Below, one piece after another: positions 610-20,299 of a DNA stretch of 64,000 nucleotides. The stretch comes from a virus. The DNA lies in the IMG/VR virus record IMGVR_UViG_3300020172_006270, positions 124,001 through 188,000 of that record; one strand, given 5' to 3'. Position numbers and translations under genes: made by a program. The notes under the pieces are model-generated. The model saw only the letters and a list, made by a program, of their open reading frames with translations. It ran no database searches and was not told the DNA's origin. Within the stretch, counting starts at the first letter, position 1. Every line of letters begins with the position of its first letter.

Positions 610-3600
610 TAGGCTTCTCCCCTTATTGATTTTTCAAGATTAGCAACAGCCGAAGCATATTCGTGCGGTTGGTATTTGTCCTTGTTTGTATGGAAGTGAT
701 TGAGTAACTTCTTCTTCTGTTCTATCAAAGCTGGCGAGTGAGTTCCCAAATAATGTGGGTGGTGAGCAACACCAAGCCAATTCTTTTTAGCAAATAACTC
801 ACTGACGCTTTCTGTAGGCGCAGGCACTTGCTGTCCGGCTGGTGCCGTAGCCGGGGCTGGTGCTGGTGCTGCTGTAGCTGTAGCCGCTGCCGGTGTAGGA
901 GCAGGAGCTACCGGATTTGCTTCTGGCGCAGCGGTTTGTCCCAGCTTTCGTTTGGCAATAGTATCCCTCAAACGAGTGCCTTGAGCTTTTGTATCTACAT
1001 CTGCCGTTGGCTTTGTCGGAGGCGTAATTTCTCTAGCCGCTTGTGATGCCGCTGGTGCTGGCAAATTAAAGCGTCGATTGATTTCAGCCTGAACTCGATC
1101 CATTACATTGGTGTTGTCCTTACCGACAATTTTTTTGGATACAAGTTCTTGTATAAAGTTGCCATATTTTGCGCCCCGCTTTGCCAGCAAGTTGAATTTC
1201 ATTTCATCTTTTTCTTCAAAATCAGCTTCTTCCATATTGTCGAATGCCAATTGCAAGTAATGCAAAGCACTCTTTAACTCTTTGTCTGATTCTTGACCGT
1301 TATCAACGGGACGAATTTTTCCAGGATCGCCTGATCCAACTTCGATTGCTTGTTTTACCAAGGGGTGATTTTGGAACGCAGACATCAATTGTTCGGATGT
1401 TCTAAGTCCATCTTCATCAATCCAACCCTTAACTAACCTCTCTGCGGTTTCTTTGGCCTCTTCTTGCGACATTCCGGTGTTTCTATACAGAGTGCCAAGT
1501 GTGTTGCCTAAGAATAACTTGAAGTCAATTTGCGAGTTGATGCCATCACGAATCATTTTAATGATGTGAACACCAGTTTCATGATTGCTTAGTTCTTTTG
1601 CTGTATGAGTAAGTTCATCGGCCTTTGCTGCATCTTGTTGCATTTTCAGTATGGCGTCACGCATAACGGAAATGTTGTATGGAGTTTGCAACCCACTTGT
1701 GTCCCACGCCCGTTCGCCTTTGCCACGCTTTTTTTTGCCAATACCGCCGCCAGATTTAACTCGACTCATTAGATCGTCTTCAATGTTGGCATCTCCACCA
1801 TCACTAAAGCTGACTGTGTGAGCATCCTCTCCACCACCTAGCATTCTCATGCGACGACTGCCACCACCTTTGCCTTGGTCTTTTTGCATGAGGTTTGATA
1901 ATTTACCTTTCGCAAACTTCCTGCGACCCTCTGGCGTGAGTAGCTCAGGGTCGTCCATAGATTGAATCATTTTTGAATAGATGTATGAGTGCAATCCTTC
2001 AAGATCGTTCCTGGCAATTTTTCTTTCATGTGCCGTAGCGCCACCACAGGCAGTTCCCCATAGGCAATCTTTCATGCCATTGGCGATGTCTTCATAGAAA
2101 TTCCCCCGTGGATCAGGCGTGATTCTGCCATTTTGGTCCATGTGAACTTTTTGTTGACTATCGAATATTTTATCGTAAGTTTCTTGCCATTTAGGGTTTC
2201 CTCTAGTCATGTGCAAAACTTTCTCAGAGTCATGATTGACATCCAATCCTCCTGGAGCCTTGTGTTTTTGTTTTCCATAAACATCATCTGGAACATGAAC
2301 GAAAGATTTATCATGACCTCTTAATTGGTCTTCCGGTACTTTGTAGATCGGCTCTCCAGTTTCAGGATTGTATTTTTTTCTTGCATTCCCTTCGGCATCA
2401 TATTCATATTCATAGTCAGAATCTTCGCTACCCAATTCACGAAGATAATGCGCAGGATTAACGATAGGCATGTCCACAGGGACGGACTGCACTTTTCCAT
2501 CTATGACCTTTTGAATCATTTGCTTTTTAACTGGCAAATAAAGAGGAGGGTTTACAAACTTTGGGCCTTCTGATGTCATTCTGATCCCAATTGGAAATCC
2601 CTTGGGATTCACGCCTGGAATTGGCGGTCCTCTAAATTCTCCTTTTTCCACTCTATCAAAAAGTTCTGCATTTACTTGTTTGTTTGCTTCTTTGCGAAGA
2701 TCAGAATCTTTTCCTTTCCATGTTCTTCTTAATCCTGCTTCGATTTTCTTTCTTAGTTCGTTTCTGATATATTGAGCCGACCAAGTATCTTGCTTGCCTT
2801 TCATTTCTTTCCACTCAACATCTTTTGGTAGCTCTCCAAAAATGCGGTGGGAATTTGCACTTAAAAATTCGCCCATGTTGGTGCTTATTGACGCTTCCGC
2901 TGGAAACTTAAATCCCGAAGTTAGATGTGAACCAGAAACCTTGCGTTCGTCTCCATCATCATCGAAGACTGTTTTAATGTTCTTTTTGCCATCAATCGGG
3001 TCGGTCATATCAAAGCCGTATTTGCCTTGACCTTGCAGCCCCGACTCTGGATGGAACTCTTCTCCAGGCGTAGTTTCCAACTTATGGTAAAGCCGATTCA
3101 AAAATGGCTTTGCCATAAATGTTTGCTTTCTTGGAACGGCTGATGTGTCGCTAGAAGTAAGCGTAAATGGAACTGCTTCCTTTGGTTCGTCAACGTGTGC
3201 CGTTTGCTTTCTGATAAACTCGTGGGCCAGTTTTTCAGCATGTGCTTCTTTTTGATGTCGATTCATCATCTTAGAGCCGCTTTGCTTTAAGTGCGTAATT
3301 TCCCAAGCTGGCACGACCCCATCTAGGTGGCTCCACTCGCCTGTTTCCATAGCAGTGACAATTGCTTGTACTAATTCTTTTTGCTTGTATTCGCCGTGTC
3401 TCTTTTCATGCAAGCCCTGTACTGCCCGAAACAGCATTTCATATCGAGCTTTCTTTGCAGTTACCCAAAAATCATGCGGAAACTGTCGTAGGAATTCAAG
3501 ATCGTCATCGTCAAATTTAATTGGCATATCATTGCGAATGTGGTGTCGCACAGCCATTTCTGTAAAGAAATAGCCGGGTCTAAAGTATCGGGTTGCTTTT

Positions 3601-9959: not shown

Positions 9960-10793
9960 TTATGCTGCCGCTTCTGAGGTTTGTAATCTTGGTTCTTCGC
10001 CAAAGAAGATTACTCCTGGTCTGTTTACCACTTTGTTAAATGGCGGCATATCCAGTTCTGCGTATTCGGTACGCTCAAAGAACAAACTGTCGGTGGGTTC
10101 GGTTCTTGCCTTGTGCTTAGGCGGCAACTGATCCATTTCTTCAACAGTAAATGGCTTCATGGTCTTCTTGCGTTGTACGAATGTGCCTCGCTTAAAGAAT
10201 GCAGGATAGTCATTCCAGTTGATTCCTTTTTCTTTCCACAGCATTTCTTGCATCTGTGGGCCGTTCTTGTTTTCAACCTGTTTGTGGCTGAAGTAAGTAC
10301 GAGCCGCCATCGAGATGCTGTTCTTGGTTGCGTCGTGTTCTCTCCACAAGAAAGCGTTGGCACCTTCCATAGCGTTTGGAACACACCATACTCGACAGTC
10401 AAACGTCGGCATCTTGGCCGAATATTCTTCTGGCAAGTATTTGGGCAGGTTCTTGTTGAAATACACCGACTGCATAGCTGCCAAGATGGAGAGCATTTTG
10501 CTTACCCTTCCATCAAAGAAGATTTCGCAGTCGAAGTCCGCAGCAAACCACCCAAGGGTGATCTCATCAGACTGAGTATATCCGCAACTTGCGTTCGTCT
10601 CTTGCACCAAGTATTTGGTGCTATCAATCATGAGCCTTGACATGCGCTCATCATATGGCCGTTTGAGGCCCTTGCAAAAACTGTGAAATGCCCGGCCATC
10701 AAGCCGTGCAATGACCGGCAGCAAGGGCATCAGTTTTCGCCCCGCTTCGCTCATCTCGTACAGTTTCATTCGGTCGCCAAAGTCGTCTTTCAT
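9960..10793 (-). CDS. Thg1-like 3'-5' polymerase (tRNA-His guanylyltransferase family)
   Basis: 277 aa. N-terminal DDFGDRMKLYE and the catalytic RLDGRAFHSF (residues 30-39), with YTQSDEITL (72-80), match the Thg1/TLP family. The metal-binding acids are D32 and D76/E77. Members add nucleotides in the 3'-5' direction, either G-1 of tRNA-His or repair of 5'-truncated tRNAs. The gene overlaps the end of the upstream gene by 95 nt, but the family start is well matched at 10793 (GGAAAG upstream). No tRNA gene is seen in this window, so the substrate would be host tRNA or tRNAs elsewhere in the phage. Confidence 0.9.
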   Translation of the reverse strand: MKDDFGDRMKLYEMSEAGRKLMPLLPVIARLDGRAFHSFCKGLKRPYDERMSRLMIDSTKYLVQETNASCGYTQSDEITLGWFAADFDCEIFFDGRVSKMLSILAAMQSVYFNKNLPKYLPEEYSAKMPTFDCRVWCVPNAMEGANAFLWREHDATKNSISMAARTYFSHKQVENKNGPQMQEMLWKEKGINWNDYPAFFKRGTFVQRKKTMKPFTVEEMDQLPPKHKARTEPTDSLFFERTEYAELDMPPFNKVVNRPGVIFFGEEPRLQTSEAAA

Positions 10794-11031: not shown

Positions 11032-11514
11032 TCAAGTTGTCTTTCTCACGATCCAGGCATAAGGAGCAATGCCGCATTCGTGACAGTAGTACAGATGATG
11101 TTGTAACCAATGAGATCGAAAACTCGCCTTTGTCCACCATCCGGTATATCCCAATGTATTAACGCAAAAGAATTCTTTCGGATTCCTTTCGGCAATCAAG
11201 TAATAATGGCCTTCGAGTTTTTCTTTGAAGATAAAAGCTGATTTCATTATGACGGCTCGTCCCGCCTTTAACGCATCATCTATTACTTGAATATTTGGGT
11301 TAGATCGAGGGGTTATTTTGATCCCATCTATGCTGTACAGTGATTCGACAAAGCAACTTAAATCAGTTCCATCAGGCTTGCAGTTGCAATGCTCCATCCA
11401 GTAATTATAACGTGTTGCGTAAGTGGCTTTTTTGCCAAGCCATTTTTCCAAGTTCAGCAGAGCAACGGGGCCGCATGAGTGTTCGTTCCGTTGGTTTATC
11501 CATCGGGTCTTCAT
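11032..11514 (-). CDS. C39-like papain-fold cysteine peptidase
   Basis: 160 aa. Q8 and C14 in NQRNEHSCGPVALLN match the oxyanion Gln and catalytic Cys of C39-type bacteriocin-processing peptidases. A later EGHYYLIAER...FFCVN supplies His and Asn/Asp candidates. There is no transporter domain, so this is a stand-alone peptidase. The start has no Shine-Dalgarno but has TAAATA exactly 4 nt before the ATG. It is a possible processing or anti-host protease. Confidence 0.7.
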   Translation of the reverse strand: MKTRWINQRNEHSCGPVALLNLEKWLGKKATYATRYNYWMEHCNCKPDGTDLSCFVESLYSIDGIKITPRSNPNIQVIDDALKAGRAVIMKSAFIFKEKLEGHYYLIAERNPKEFFCVNTLGYTGWWTKASFRSHWLQHHLYYCHECGIAPYAWIVRKTT

Positions 11515-11518
11515 GCCC

Positions 11519-11524
11519 TATTTA
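11519..11524 (-). promoter_or_regulatory. TAAATA box 4 nt before ATG (leaderless-type late promoter)
   Basis: Minus-strand TAAATA, then GGGC, then the ATG of the C39-like peptidase. It lies inside the end of the upstream gene. Part of a recurring class in this window. Confidence 0.55.
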
Positions 11525-12292
11525 TGACTGAGCATTGTATTGAGCCAAAAATTGTGGCACCAATTGCATGATTTGATCGTGCGGATTTTCGTGGTTATAG
11601 CCAAATCTATTGACATTTTTTTGCCAAACTTCAGGCTTTGCAAAACCGCTGAAGTAATTCTTATGGGTTGTGGTGAACCCCGGCTTGTCCAATATTGATT
11701 GTGCTTTGGTTAAATCGAATGGTTCGCCGGGGAAGTTTTTGGCATACAAATAGGCCATTTGTCTGGCGTGCGCTCGAACCTCTCCGGGATTGCTCATGTA
11801 TTGCATCGCCATGCGGTGCTTATCGTCGCCTTCCCAATCGTTTGAATCATATTCTGCACCCACATTGTAAATGTGTTCTGCTTCATGGTGCATTGCCGAT
11901 TTAAGAGTTGCCAAATGTGCATCAACATCTTCTATGCTCTTGGCATAGTTGAAAGGATACATATTGATGACAAAGCCCTCGAACTTGCCGTTGTTGTGAA
12001 CGGTATCGGCAGCATTGTGGCCCAGCTTGAGTTTGAATTGAACTCGTTGACCAGCAATATCAGCGGGGAAGATGTTGGGCAGCACAAATTCGCCGTTTTG
12101 AACAGCGTCTTGCGGCCAAACTTGTCTGACGTAGTTCGTATACGTCTGATTTGGCTGACCGGCCTGCATGTCTCTCTTTTTGAGAGCGGTGGCCTTGTCA
12201 AGAATATCTTCAAGAAAACGTGCGACTTGAATCTCAACGATGTGTTGAGATTCTTGAAGATTTAGCCAATGATGAAATGAAAACTTCCCCAT
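11522..12292 (-). CDS. Capsid-targeting-like N-terminus on a zincin metalloprotease-like protein
   Basis: 256 aa. Begins MGKFSFHHWLNLQES: the F-x-x-W-L-x-L-x-E module, with LQE as the predicted cut site. Residues 136-140 are HEAEH, an HExxH zinc site, and E171 in NPGEVRAHA is a good third ligand. The surroundings are helical. It is expressed from a box inside a terminator hairpin with no Shine-Dalgarno. I infer a head-packaged protease delivered with the DNA. Confidence 0.7.
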   Translation of the reverse strand: MGKFSFHHWLNLQESQHIVEIQVARFLEDILDKATALKKRDMQAGQPNQTYTNYVRQVWPQDAVQNGEFVLPNIFPADIAGQRVQFKLKLGHNAADTVHNNGKFEGFVINMYPFNYAKSIEDVDAHLATLKSAMHHEAEHIYNVGAEYDSNDWEGDDKHRMAMQYMSNPGEVRAHARQMAYLYAKNFPGEPFDLTKAQSILDKPGFTTTHKNYFSGFAKPEVWQKNVNRFGYNHENPHDQIMQLVPQFLAQYNAQS

Positions 12293-12316
12293 GACGTTAT
12301 TTACGTCATGGGGAAG
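12284..12316 (-). terminator. Terminator hairpin with late promoter box and start codon embedded
   Basis: A perfect 14-bp stem (CTTCCCCATGACGT / ACGTCATGGGGAAG) with a 5-nt loop, followed on the minus strand by TTTT. It terminates the gene ending at 12322. The minus-strand loop region contains TAAATA (12298-12303), and the 3' arm contains the ATG (12292) and first codons of the next gene. Confidence 0.75.
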
Positions 12317-12321
12317 CGAAA

Positions 12322-13404
12322 TTACTCGGTCATTGCAGCAACGCCGTCTTTATATCCTTCGCTGGTCATAATGCCAGACGGGGACCAGCCAGGACCAACG
12401 ATCCATTCCAACCACCGATCAGCCGACATTGGCTCGGCTGCGCCCCACGGCGGGGAGTTGGCCATCCATTCGGCCAAAATACGAGGGTCTGAGAATGCCG
12501 GGGAAATTGGCGATCCTTCCGATACTGTTTCCCAAATCTGGTACGCCTCACCAGCAGGCGGTTCTTCTTTCACCCAATCTTCAGCCCATTGTTCAGCCTC
12601 GGCAGGTTGCCAGATTGAACCATGACCATTGCATACGTCACATTTAACGGTGTATCCTTCACGTTTGCATCTTGCCTCGATACAAACGTGACAGTTGATG
12701 GAATCGTGACCGAAACCACCAATGCTCCATCCGTTCACTTCTTCAGGTGTAGGCATATATCCATTTGGGAATGGAAGCCAAGGTCCGTTATGTTCCTCTG
12801 CGGCCTTTTCCCAAAAGATCGTGCCGTCGCCTTCAGGACGACCCGCTTCTTCCCACAAGTAATATGCACGGGTGCGGATATATTCCTCCAATGGAATATC
12901 CTTCAACCGTCTGCGAGTGAAGTCGTACAATCGCTCTGCCTCAACTAATGCAGCAACATCTGCGGCATTCAAGTGATGGTTCCATTGCTGGTTCCACATT
13001 TCCAGTAGTCGATTGCATTCTCGTTCAATGGCTTGCTCACGAGTATATCGACCATTCTCGGTGTAGTAGCACGTCTTGCCGGTGCGGGTTGAACGAAAAC
13101 CAGGATGAAACTCTAGGGCAGTTCCAGCGGCAGCTTCACGAATGGAGCGATCTACCTGATGCTCTACGAAGGCTTTTAGAGCGGGAGTTTCAGGCGTAAG
13201 CAATTCGCTGCCATAGGCAATGGGATCGAACTTTGAGTTTCCATACCATTGCTCTTTGTACAAGTGTGCCATTGTGCTGTATCCTGTTCCATCACAAACA
13301 GCACAACTGTGCGAATGCTTGTAGTATGGATTAAGATAGCCTTCCCACGTCTTGTCCAAAGGCCAATCAAAGCTCGTGGCTACACGTTTTACTTCACGAC
13401 CCAC
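12322..13404 (-). CDS. Zinc-ribbon protein with DnaJ-like CxxCxGxG repeats
   Basis: 360 aa from a GTG at 13404 preceded by AGGAGA; an ATG at 13464 lies inside the upstream gene. CAVCDGTGY near the N-terminus and CDVCNGHGS near residue 265 match the CxxCxGxG zinc repeat of DnaJ, with CHVC about 15 residues before the second. Between them are long helices. Zinc binding and protein or RNA contact are inferred. It lies 11 nt downstream of an AAA+ ATPase and is probably its functional partner. Confidence 0.6.
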   Translation of the reverse strand: MGREVKRVATSFDWPLDKTWEGYLNPYYKHSHSCAVCDGTGYSTMAHLYKEQWYGNSKFDPIAYGSELLTPETPALKAFVEHQVDRSIREAAAGTALEFHPGFRSTRTGKTCYYTENGRYTREQAIERECNRLLEMWNQQWNHHLNAADVAALVEAERLYDFTRRRLKDIPLEEYIRTRAYYLWEEAGRPEGDGTIFWEKAAEEHNGPWLPFPNGYMPTPEEVNGWSIGGFGHDSINCHVCIEARCKREGYTVKCDVCNGHGSIWQPAEAEQWAEDWVKEEPPAGEAYQIWETVSEGSPISPAFSDPRILAEWMANSPPWGAAEPMSADRWLEWIVGPGWSPSGIMTSEGYKDGVAAMTE

Positions 13405-13414
13405 GGTCGATCTC

Positions 13415-14722
13415 CTATTTGTTGTTGAATGAATTCTGAGCGGAATGAATAGCCTGCCAGTCACGCTGATAAGTTCCGTCTAGCAATCGGTCCCCACCAG
13501 CAAGATAGCTGCGAACAATACGAGGGTCACTCACACCCATCTCGGTTGCCAGTTGAATTGCTGGGGCAATCCACTCTTGCCGTCCACCCTTCTCTCGAAC
13601 TTCTTTATCGAGAATCTGCAACAGCACAGCTTGGCTAGGACGTGGGAAATACACCTGCGTCACACACCGGCTGGACAAAGCACCCGCTTCTGTTCCATCG
13701 CTGCCCATCATCTTGTCGAATAGGGCCTTATTGTTGACAGAGCAGATGAACAGCACTTTGACTGAACGAAGTTGGTTGACTCGGAAGTTGACCTTTCGGA
13801 TTTCACCACGGTCGTCCAGAGCGCCCAGCCAAATTTTCAGTGCTTCAGGATCGGCCTTTTCAGCCTCTTCCATGAAGACCAGCGGCGGGATTTCGTTCAG
13901 GTCATTGAAGAATAGCTTCTCCAACCCTGCCTTAGTGGTGCTGGTTGCGTCCAGCTTCAATACGGCATCGGCCCCGAACATGCTTTCCAATGCGAACATG
14001 GTGGTCGTCTTGCCGCACCCGGCGTGACCAAACAATACAGCGTGGTTACGGCTTTCACCGTTTGTTTCCTGCGCCCGCTTGATGTTGCTGAGGATGATGC
14101 GAGTTTGGGCATTGACACCATACAGGTTCTTCCATGCCGGGTGTTCGGCAAGGTGATTGTCGCTTTCTCGGCCCAATAGTTCGGGCGGCACAACCAATTG
14201 ATCCCACTTCTTGGCGGGGCCAAATAGTCCGACCGTGCGAACGCCACCCAGGATTTGGGTGAGCATACCATCCAATACACCCTCGAAGCCTTCAGGTTGA
14301 GGCAGTGGAGTCGTAGCGATGGCGTCCGGGTCAAGTTCGGCTTCTGGCTGCACTGGTTGAGCCAATTGGACTACAGGAGCAGTGGCAGCAGGCACAACAT
14401 TTTGTCCGACCTGAACCGTCCAAGGGAAGGGCTGGAAACGAGTGATGGCCCCGGTCTGTTGGAGCATCGCTTTGATTTCTTCCCACTGCTTATATTCGGC
14501 ATCCTGCCCACGTTCGCCACGCTTCTTCTCGAATGTGATTCGATATTTGAACAGCCAGTTGCCGCTTTCCTGTTGAATGGGCGGCATACGATGCGGAATA
14601 GCTTCCCATGTCTTGCCACGGGTTCCGGCCATTCCACGCTGAAGGATGTATTCGATCTGAGCCTGAATCTTCTCGTCGCCACTTCGCTTGGACAGAACCC
14701 GCTGCAAATACAGAGTGTACAT
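13415..14722 (-). CDS. AAA+ ATPase
   Basis: 435 aa. Residues 1-100 form a distinct N-terminal domain, then an Ala/Pro/Gln linker (about 108-140). The AAA+ core has Walker A GHAGCGKTT (232-240), Walker B PPLVFMEEAE, a sensor-1 region ICSVNN and an arginine-finger candidate in LSSRC. The helical lid follows (IVRSYLAGGDRLL). It resembles RuvB/clamp-loader-type remodelling ATPases, but the precise substrate is unknown. It is read from its own promoter and followed by a zinc-repeat protein. Confidence 0.85.
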   Translation of the reverse strand: MYTLYLQRVLSKRSGDEKIQAQIEYILQRGMAGTRGKTWEAIPHRMPPIQQESGNWLFKYRITFEKKRGERGQDAEYKQWEEIKAMLQQTGAITRFQPFPWTVQVGQNVVPAATAPVVQLAQPVQPEAELDPDAIATTPLPQPEGFEGVLDGMLTQILGGVRTVGLFGPAKKWDQLVVPPELLGRESDNHLAEHPAWKNLYGVNAQTRIILSNIKRAQETNGESRNHAVLFGHAGCGKTTTMFALESMFGADAVLKLDATSTTKAGLEKLFFNDLNEIPPLVFMEEAEKADPEALKIWLGALDDRGEIRKVNFRVNQLRSVKVLFICSVNNKALFDKMMGSDGTEAGALSSRCVTQVYFPRPSQAVLLQILDKEVREKGGRQEWIAPAIQLATEMGVSDPRIVRSYLAGGDRLLDGTYQRDWQAIHSAQNSFNNK

Positions 14723-14841: not shown

Positions 14842-14870
14842 ATTATACCACGGGGGAGCAGACTTGTAAA
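14842..14870 (-). promoter_or_regulatory. Sigma-70-like promoter for the AAA+ operon
   Basis: Minus strand: TTTACA (14865-14870), 17-nt spacer, TATAAT (14842-14847, consensus). The 5' leader to 14722 is about 110 nt. The 217-nt gap at 14723-14939 holds only this promoter, the leader and the terminator at 14888. Confidence 0.8.
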
Positions 14871-14887
14871 ATCGGCTGTAAATAAAA

Positions 14888-14913
14888 ACAGCACCCGAAT
14901 ATCCGGGTGCTGT
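14888..14913 (-). terminator. Rho-independent terminator
   Basis: 10-bp stem ACAGCACCCG / CGGGTGCTGT with a 6-nt loop, followed on the minus strand by TTTTTATT. It ends the transcript of the gene at 14940-15458 just before the next promoter. Confidence 0.85.
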
Positions 14914-14939
14914 TGTCGTTCTTCGTATTGACTTGGATA

Positions 14940-20077: not shown

Positions 20078-20106
20078 ATTGGAAATCCTTTTTGGTTGCT
20101 CGTCCA

Positions 20107-20112
20107 TAAATA
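20107..20112 (+). promoter_or_regulatory. TAAATA box 4 nt before ATG (leaderless-type late promoter)
   Basis: TAAATA, GAGT, then the ATG at 20117. No Shine-Dalgarno upstream. Confidence 0.55.
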
Positions 20113-20116
20113 GAGT

Positions 20117-20299
20117 ATGGACCAATCGCAAGTACCAAACGAGAAGCCAAACGAGAAACCAAAGGAAGGTTGCGGTTGTGGCAGTACGAAGATGGCTCCA
20201 GCACTGACCGAGCAGCAAGAAAAGTTGATTAGTCGTATTCAAAAGACCAGTCAGCGAAAAAACTCGATCTATAAAACCAATACACGTTATTTCATGTGA
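20117..20299 (+). CDS. Small Cys-Gly-Cys protein (60 aa)
   Basis: MDQSQVPNEKPNEKPKEGCG followed by CGSTK. A short tandem repeat NEKP NEKP leads into a GCGCG turn, then a basic helix (QQEKLISRIQKTSQRKNSIY). The late box directly before the start supports it as a real gene. The next gene encodes another small protein with an ACGC motif. Confidence 0.6.
   Translation: MDQSQVPNEKPNEKPKEGCGCGSTKMAPALTEQQEKLISRIQKTSQRKNSIYKTNTRYFM

Follow-up and report, generated by a model that had tools for sequence, protein, structure and literature searches.

A terminator-like hairpin enclosing a putative leaderless late promoter and a start codon: a candidate control element in a large T4-related phage

On the minus strand of the window analysed here, a 64,000-nucleotide stretch of a 223,268-base virus record, a perfect 14-bp stem lies at the end of one gene and takes in both a TAAATA box and the start codon of the next. 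The question raised by this locus is whether one hairpin could end early transcription, carry the late promoter of the following gene and hide its start codon in any RNA that reads through. The phage is large and T4-related: its major capsid protein is of gp23 type (E 2.3e-88), and by capsid gene the closest record is that of a 595-kb uncultured phage, LR756511.1 (72% nucleotide identity). A gp55-like late sigma is also encoded (family profile, E 1.5e-9); the same profile matches 7 of 14 control genomes, so this sigma has to be weighed jointly with the T4-type capsid. A single-sequence query with T4 gp55 gave no match, where the family profile did, and PF09116 detected no gp45-type clamp. Apart from the capsid gene itself, two short gp23-family matches were seen at G000:C1:46037-46351 and 177745-177951, one of them with an internal stop.

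The hairpin (12284-12316) has arms of 14 nt each at 12303-12316 and 12284-12297, 100% complementary, around a 5-nt loop; the minus strand reads CTTCCCCATGACGT-AAATA-ACGTCATGGGGAAG and then TTTTCATTT, the whole spanning 12316 to 12275. Perfect stems this long with a 3-8-nt loop are expected about 0.0016 times per 64 kb. The RNA fold has an energy of -27.6 kcal/mol (z -6.4), and 0 of 200 shuffles were as low. An earlier, sequence-only reading had described a perfect stem closing the gene that ends at 12322, and the arm complementarity and the fold bear this out. The stop codon of that gene (12324-12322) lies 5 nt ahead of the stem, and as in intrinsic terminators a GC-rich stem and short loop are followed by a U-rich tail just past a stop codon (TTTTCATT, 12276-12283), although the run of U in the tail UUUUCAUU is interrupted. 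Unlike in such terminators, the loop bears a putative late promoter, and the coding sequence of the following gene takes in the 3' arm and tail; the tail doubles as codons of an F-S-F stretch and is thereby also dictated by the protein. The TAAATA box (12298-12303) stands 5 nt ahead of the ATG, at -11. It had been placed in the loop and does lie at the hairpin tip, but only AAATA is loop; with its first T the 5' arm ends. The ATG sits in the 3' arm, as had been claimed, and the further claim that read-through RNA would hide it agrees with the predicted fold, in which its probability of being unpaired is 0.00.

The gene that begins at this ATG (11522-12292, minus strand) encodes a protein starting MGKFSFHHWLN..., with a capsid-targeting-like N-terminus and an HEAEH motif, which makes it a possible zinc metalloprotease. 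Its start is backed by orthologs of 91-95% identity, in which similarity begins at that codon; one of these has unrelated DNA upstream and is still similar from the start codon on. The protein had been called a metalloprotease outright. Of this the motif stands, unaccompanied by a family match above cut-off, and the structure prediction is of low confidence (pLDDT 68), and nothing in the PDB matched it below E 0.001. The HEAEH gene had no homologs in phage records at E 0.01 or in genome contigs, and its alignment queried against IMG/VR matched only the same four loci. The next gene on the same strand (11032-11514), C39-peptidase-like below cut-off, has a TAAATA-N4-ATG of its own.

Whether the TAAATA box acts as a promoter can be judged from its position across the genome. 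TAAATA at -10 or -11 from an ATG precedes 9 of 275 called genes in this genome, against about 0.1 expected, and 24 genes in LR756511.1, against about 0.8 (about 0.4 per position); with uncalled open frames included, the sites number 11 and 31. In IMG/VR, a pattern of box, 4-5-nt spacer and MKTF-type start was found in 97 stretches, a count made without spacing control. Over the whole window TAAATA occurs at chance level (28 vs 24.7), as does TATAAATA; the information lies solely in where they stand with respect to starts. Late boxes of T4 lie about one helical turn ahead of the transcription start (PMC2988020), so transcription from these boxes would begin at or adjoining the ATG. Judged by this spacing, a leaderless late class is well supported. 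Its members lie at 11514-, 20117+, 26748+, 36909-, 47523+ and 54031+ in the window and at L011:17459, L012:7029, L014:15741 and L018:12709 elsewhere in the genome. Many have N-termini, such as MKTFTQYL, MRFKQFLL and MNFSEWL, that resemble the capsid-targeting sequences of T4 (defined as in PMC5694885; T4 ipI begins MKTFKEF).

The enrichment at -10/-11 and the gp55-like sigma thus mark the box at 12298-12303 as a putative leaderless late promoter of T4 type. Both a TATA-type box at fixed distance and an encoded late sigma are found, and the likeness to gp55-dependent promoters extends to the TAAATA core about one helical turn ahead of the presumed start. The promoters differ from those of T4 in having no strict leading TA and in that many would direct leaderless RNAs of capsid-targeting-like genes; T4 ipI, ipII and ipIII have no late box within 70 nt. 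AT-rich DNA directly downstream of the box is absent at 12292, where GC-rich ACGTCATGGGG comes after it, but in T4 such AT-richness is a preponderance and not an absolute rule (PMC2988020). With leaderless phage mRNAs the class shares an AUG that, from the spacing, would lie at or near the 5' end, and a lack of Shine-Dalgarno sequences (Shine-Dalgarno-like in 2 of 11 leaderless genes vs 191 of 277 called genes); it differs in that a T4-type late box and N-termini of capsid-targeting-like character go with a whole class.

The chance-level total in the window could be taken to mean that TAAATA is incidental at 12292 and that the gene depends for its expression on the upstream operon, through read-through or reinitiation. 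In the ortholog L001, moreover, the hairpin and box are lost, and the HEAEH gene overlaps the gene upstream by ATGA. However, the position-specific enrichment is very strong, the box and its spacing are kept in L002-L004, and the overlapping gene of L001 itself has a TAAATA-N4-ATG, all of which make this explanation extremely improbable. That gene (L001:3447-4004), which has a capsid-targeting-like start and weakly matches an ADP-ribosyltransferase (PF18760, below cut-off), replaces the end of the upstream gene together with the hairpin and box. From this layout the HEAEH gene of L001 appears to remain late-controlled in the absence of a lock, and a lock would therefore not be essential. Where the hairpin is retained it is well conserved: its noncoding part is identical to L003 at 24 of 25 positions, compared with 54% identity at the fourfold sites of the two genes on either side.

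The gene upstream of the hairpin is probably 360 codons long (12322-13404, minus strand, DUF2934 match) and belongs to a co-directional operon whose first gene is AAA-ATPase-like (13415-14722, minus strand). Ahead of that gene stands an extended -10 promoter of sigma-70 type, TTTACA-N14-TGGTATAAT (14842-14870, minus strand), 2.55 kb upstream, with co-directional genes between; it is kept in L001 and L003, with TATGAT in one of them, and is itself preceded by a terminator (14887-14914, minus strand). From its sequence and place we take it as the likely early promoter of the operon. An inverted repeat around this promoter was considered as a conserved element and rejected, as it is not kept in relatives. 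Similar promoters recur at 7671-7643 in the window and at L011:14833, L013:15232 and 5128, L014:5870, and L015:6513 and 4822, and this class probably represents the early promoters of the phage. Most are weaker: sigma-70-type promoters with 11 of 12 consensus bases and an extended -10 number only two in the genome, at 14870-14842 and L011:14833-14861. Both head co-directional operons, and each operon ends about 2.6 kb later at one of two hairpins.

The second of these hairpins stands at L011:17459 (G000:37459+), before a gene that is not homologous to that at 12292 (protein MGLSFSKWL...) but has the same layout. A stem TAATCCCATGCGGG/CTCGCATGGGATTA surrounds TAAATA and is followed by the tail TCTTTTTC, the stop codon of a co-directional upstream gene lies 29 nt ahead of the ATG, exactly as at 12292, and the fold is -23.6 kcal/mol (z -6.3). 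A genome scan for terminator-like stems of at least 9 pairs covering a start, in which L011:17459 was scored separately, returned only these two sites, and among 42 leaderless genes only these two have Gly as codon 2. With this recurrence, the proposal that one hairpin serves three functions stands in part: a terminator-like stem, a putative leaderless late promoter and a start codon do share one conserved hairpin, with the functions themselves read from the sequence.

Orthologs of the second site retain the pairing. L137 has a 15-bp perfect stem, and L139 has GCCAT/ATGGC where L011 has CCCAT/ATGGG, a double change from C-G to G-C that turns codon 2 from Gly to Ala. If the pairing partner is shifted by one base, the paired fraction falls from 100% to at most about 40%. 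The compensating mutation suggests that pairing may be under selection, although covariation from one double change in three sequences does not beat shuffles (180 of 500). In L137 (IMGVR_UViG_3300032462_001516, about 2985-3001) the hairpin ATG is one base out of frame with the downstream ortholog (MGLRFF, then a stop); a broken gene, an assembly error and recoding would all look alike here.

The palindromes could also act in DNA, as an operator or an aid to the late promoter, and not as RNA hairpins, as several leaderless boxes lie in short inverted repeats, some beside divergent genes. We consider this very improbable. The two strong palindromes share only CCCATG/CATGGG, start codon included, and a shared operator was rejected on that account; a search for CCCATG...TAAATA...CATGGG recovered the known relatives and nothing else that was convincing, on inspection, as a new site. 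Both palindromes also carry terminator tails, a G-U pair is kept in 2 of 3 orthologs, and the compensating change alters the sequence but not the pairing.

For the hairpin at 12284-12316, we regard it as fairly probable that it is a composite element controlling the boundary of an early operon and a late gene whose product begins in a capsid-targeting-like way. In the early phase of infection, a host-type RNA polymerase would start at 14870-14842, transcribe the genes from 14722 to 12322 and stop at the hairpin, acting as an intrinsic terminator. Any read-through RNA would keep both arms, so that its AUG would be buried in the helix and presumably silent. Later, the gp55-like sigma would bring the polymerase to TAAATA at the hairpin tip, and transcription would start, going by the spacing, at the ATG or within a base or two of it. 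As the 5' arm lies entirely upstream of that start, the late RNA would lack it, could not form the hairpin and would be translated as a leaderless mRNA. In this scheme the terminator and the late promoter stand on firmer ground. The lock is plausible as a selected function but would in part be redundant, as few leaderless genes have a Shine-Dalgarno-like sequence and read-through RNA would be poorly translated even without a hairpin. A strictly late-only switch, as first proposed, is no more than a possibility; the start-codon lock could be a side effect.

That redundancy also speaks for a simpler arrangement of terminator and late promoter only, in which the hairpin insulates the late gene from the early operon and the buried ATG is a by-product of packing. 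Most leaderless genes have no lock or strong hairpin, and at gene 36909 a conventional terminator ends 29 nt ahead of the start. On the other hand, an upstream stop about 30 nt from the ATG makes reinitiation possible, which a lock would block, and a start codon is covered at 20117 as well. There a smaller hairpin (20100-20145, plus strand) covers the leaderless ATG and a G-C pair is replaced in relatives by A-U, both sides having changed, despite the upstream gene being divergent and no terminator-like stem being seen at the site; its role cannot be termination of that gene. We think the simpler arrangement rather unlikely.

To judge how general such hairpins are, stems that enclose a box and reach the ATG were compared in score with those formed in swapped upstream contexts. 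Over 42 sites of the clade the summed stem score exceeded all 2000 swaps, but with the two strong sites removed the excess is modest (the observed score is attained in 57 of 5000 swaps), and 77 leaderless IMG/VR sites showed no excess of box-enclosing hairpins. For IMG/VR, the idea that leaderless boxes as a rule lie in hairpins was thus rejected, and the strong hairpins are to be treated as special cases.

Start-codon locks are known from T4, where in longer early RNAs of genes e, soc, 49 and I-TevI the start region is hidden in a hairpin, while the late promoter lies in the 5' part and the late RNA cannot form it (PMC3014915). The same lock logic, together with a T4-type late box, is predicted at 12292, and T4 e and 49 gave start-covering folds with the code used here. 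T4 locks serve where early transcription runs toward a late gene (PMC3014915), a setting that by analogy both hairpin sites would match if their promoters are early. In T4, however, late RNA still has a leader that includes a Shine-Dalgarno sequence (TATAAATA boxes lie 19-35 nt ahead of the ATG in the 100 kb examined), whereas here the box is 4-5 nt ahead of it. The hairpin here is also terminator-like, and terminators are not mentioned in the review (PMC3014915). What appears new relative to the T4 locks is this fusion with a terminator and a leaderless start; we found no description of the combination in the open-access papers searched, which is weak evidence of novelty. A lock of the gene e type is best read as the consequence of a terminator enclosing a leaderless late promoter and start codon. 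More tentatively, we raise the possibility that a single element uniting an early terminator, a leaderless late promoter and a start lock arose at two unrelated genes in this phage, was kept by compensating change even at an amino-acid cost, and is a compact temporal switch in its own right.

Termination and translational locking, usually separate layers, would then be joined in one 33-nt stretch, and the layout suggests that a lock of the T4 lysozyme type can work with leaderless RNAs. For large uncultured phages, leaderless late promoters ahead of capsid-targeting-like genes would offer a simple sequence rule for candidate packaged proteins. Also near the late genes, at 9960-10793 of the window, is a gene for a tRNA-His guanylyltransferase (Thg1; phrog_4717, E 1.8e-81).
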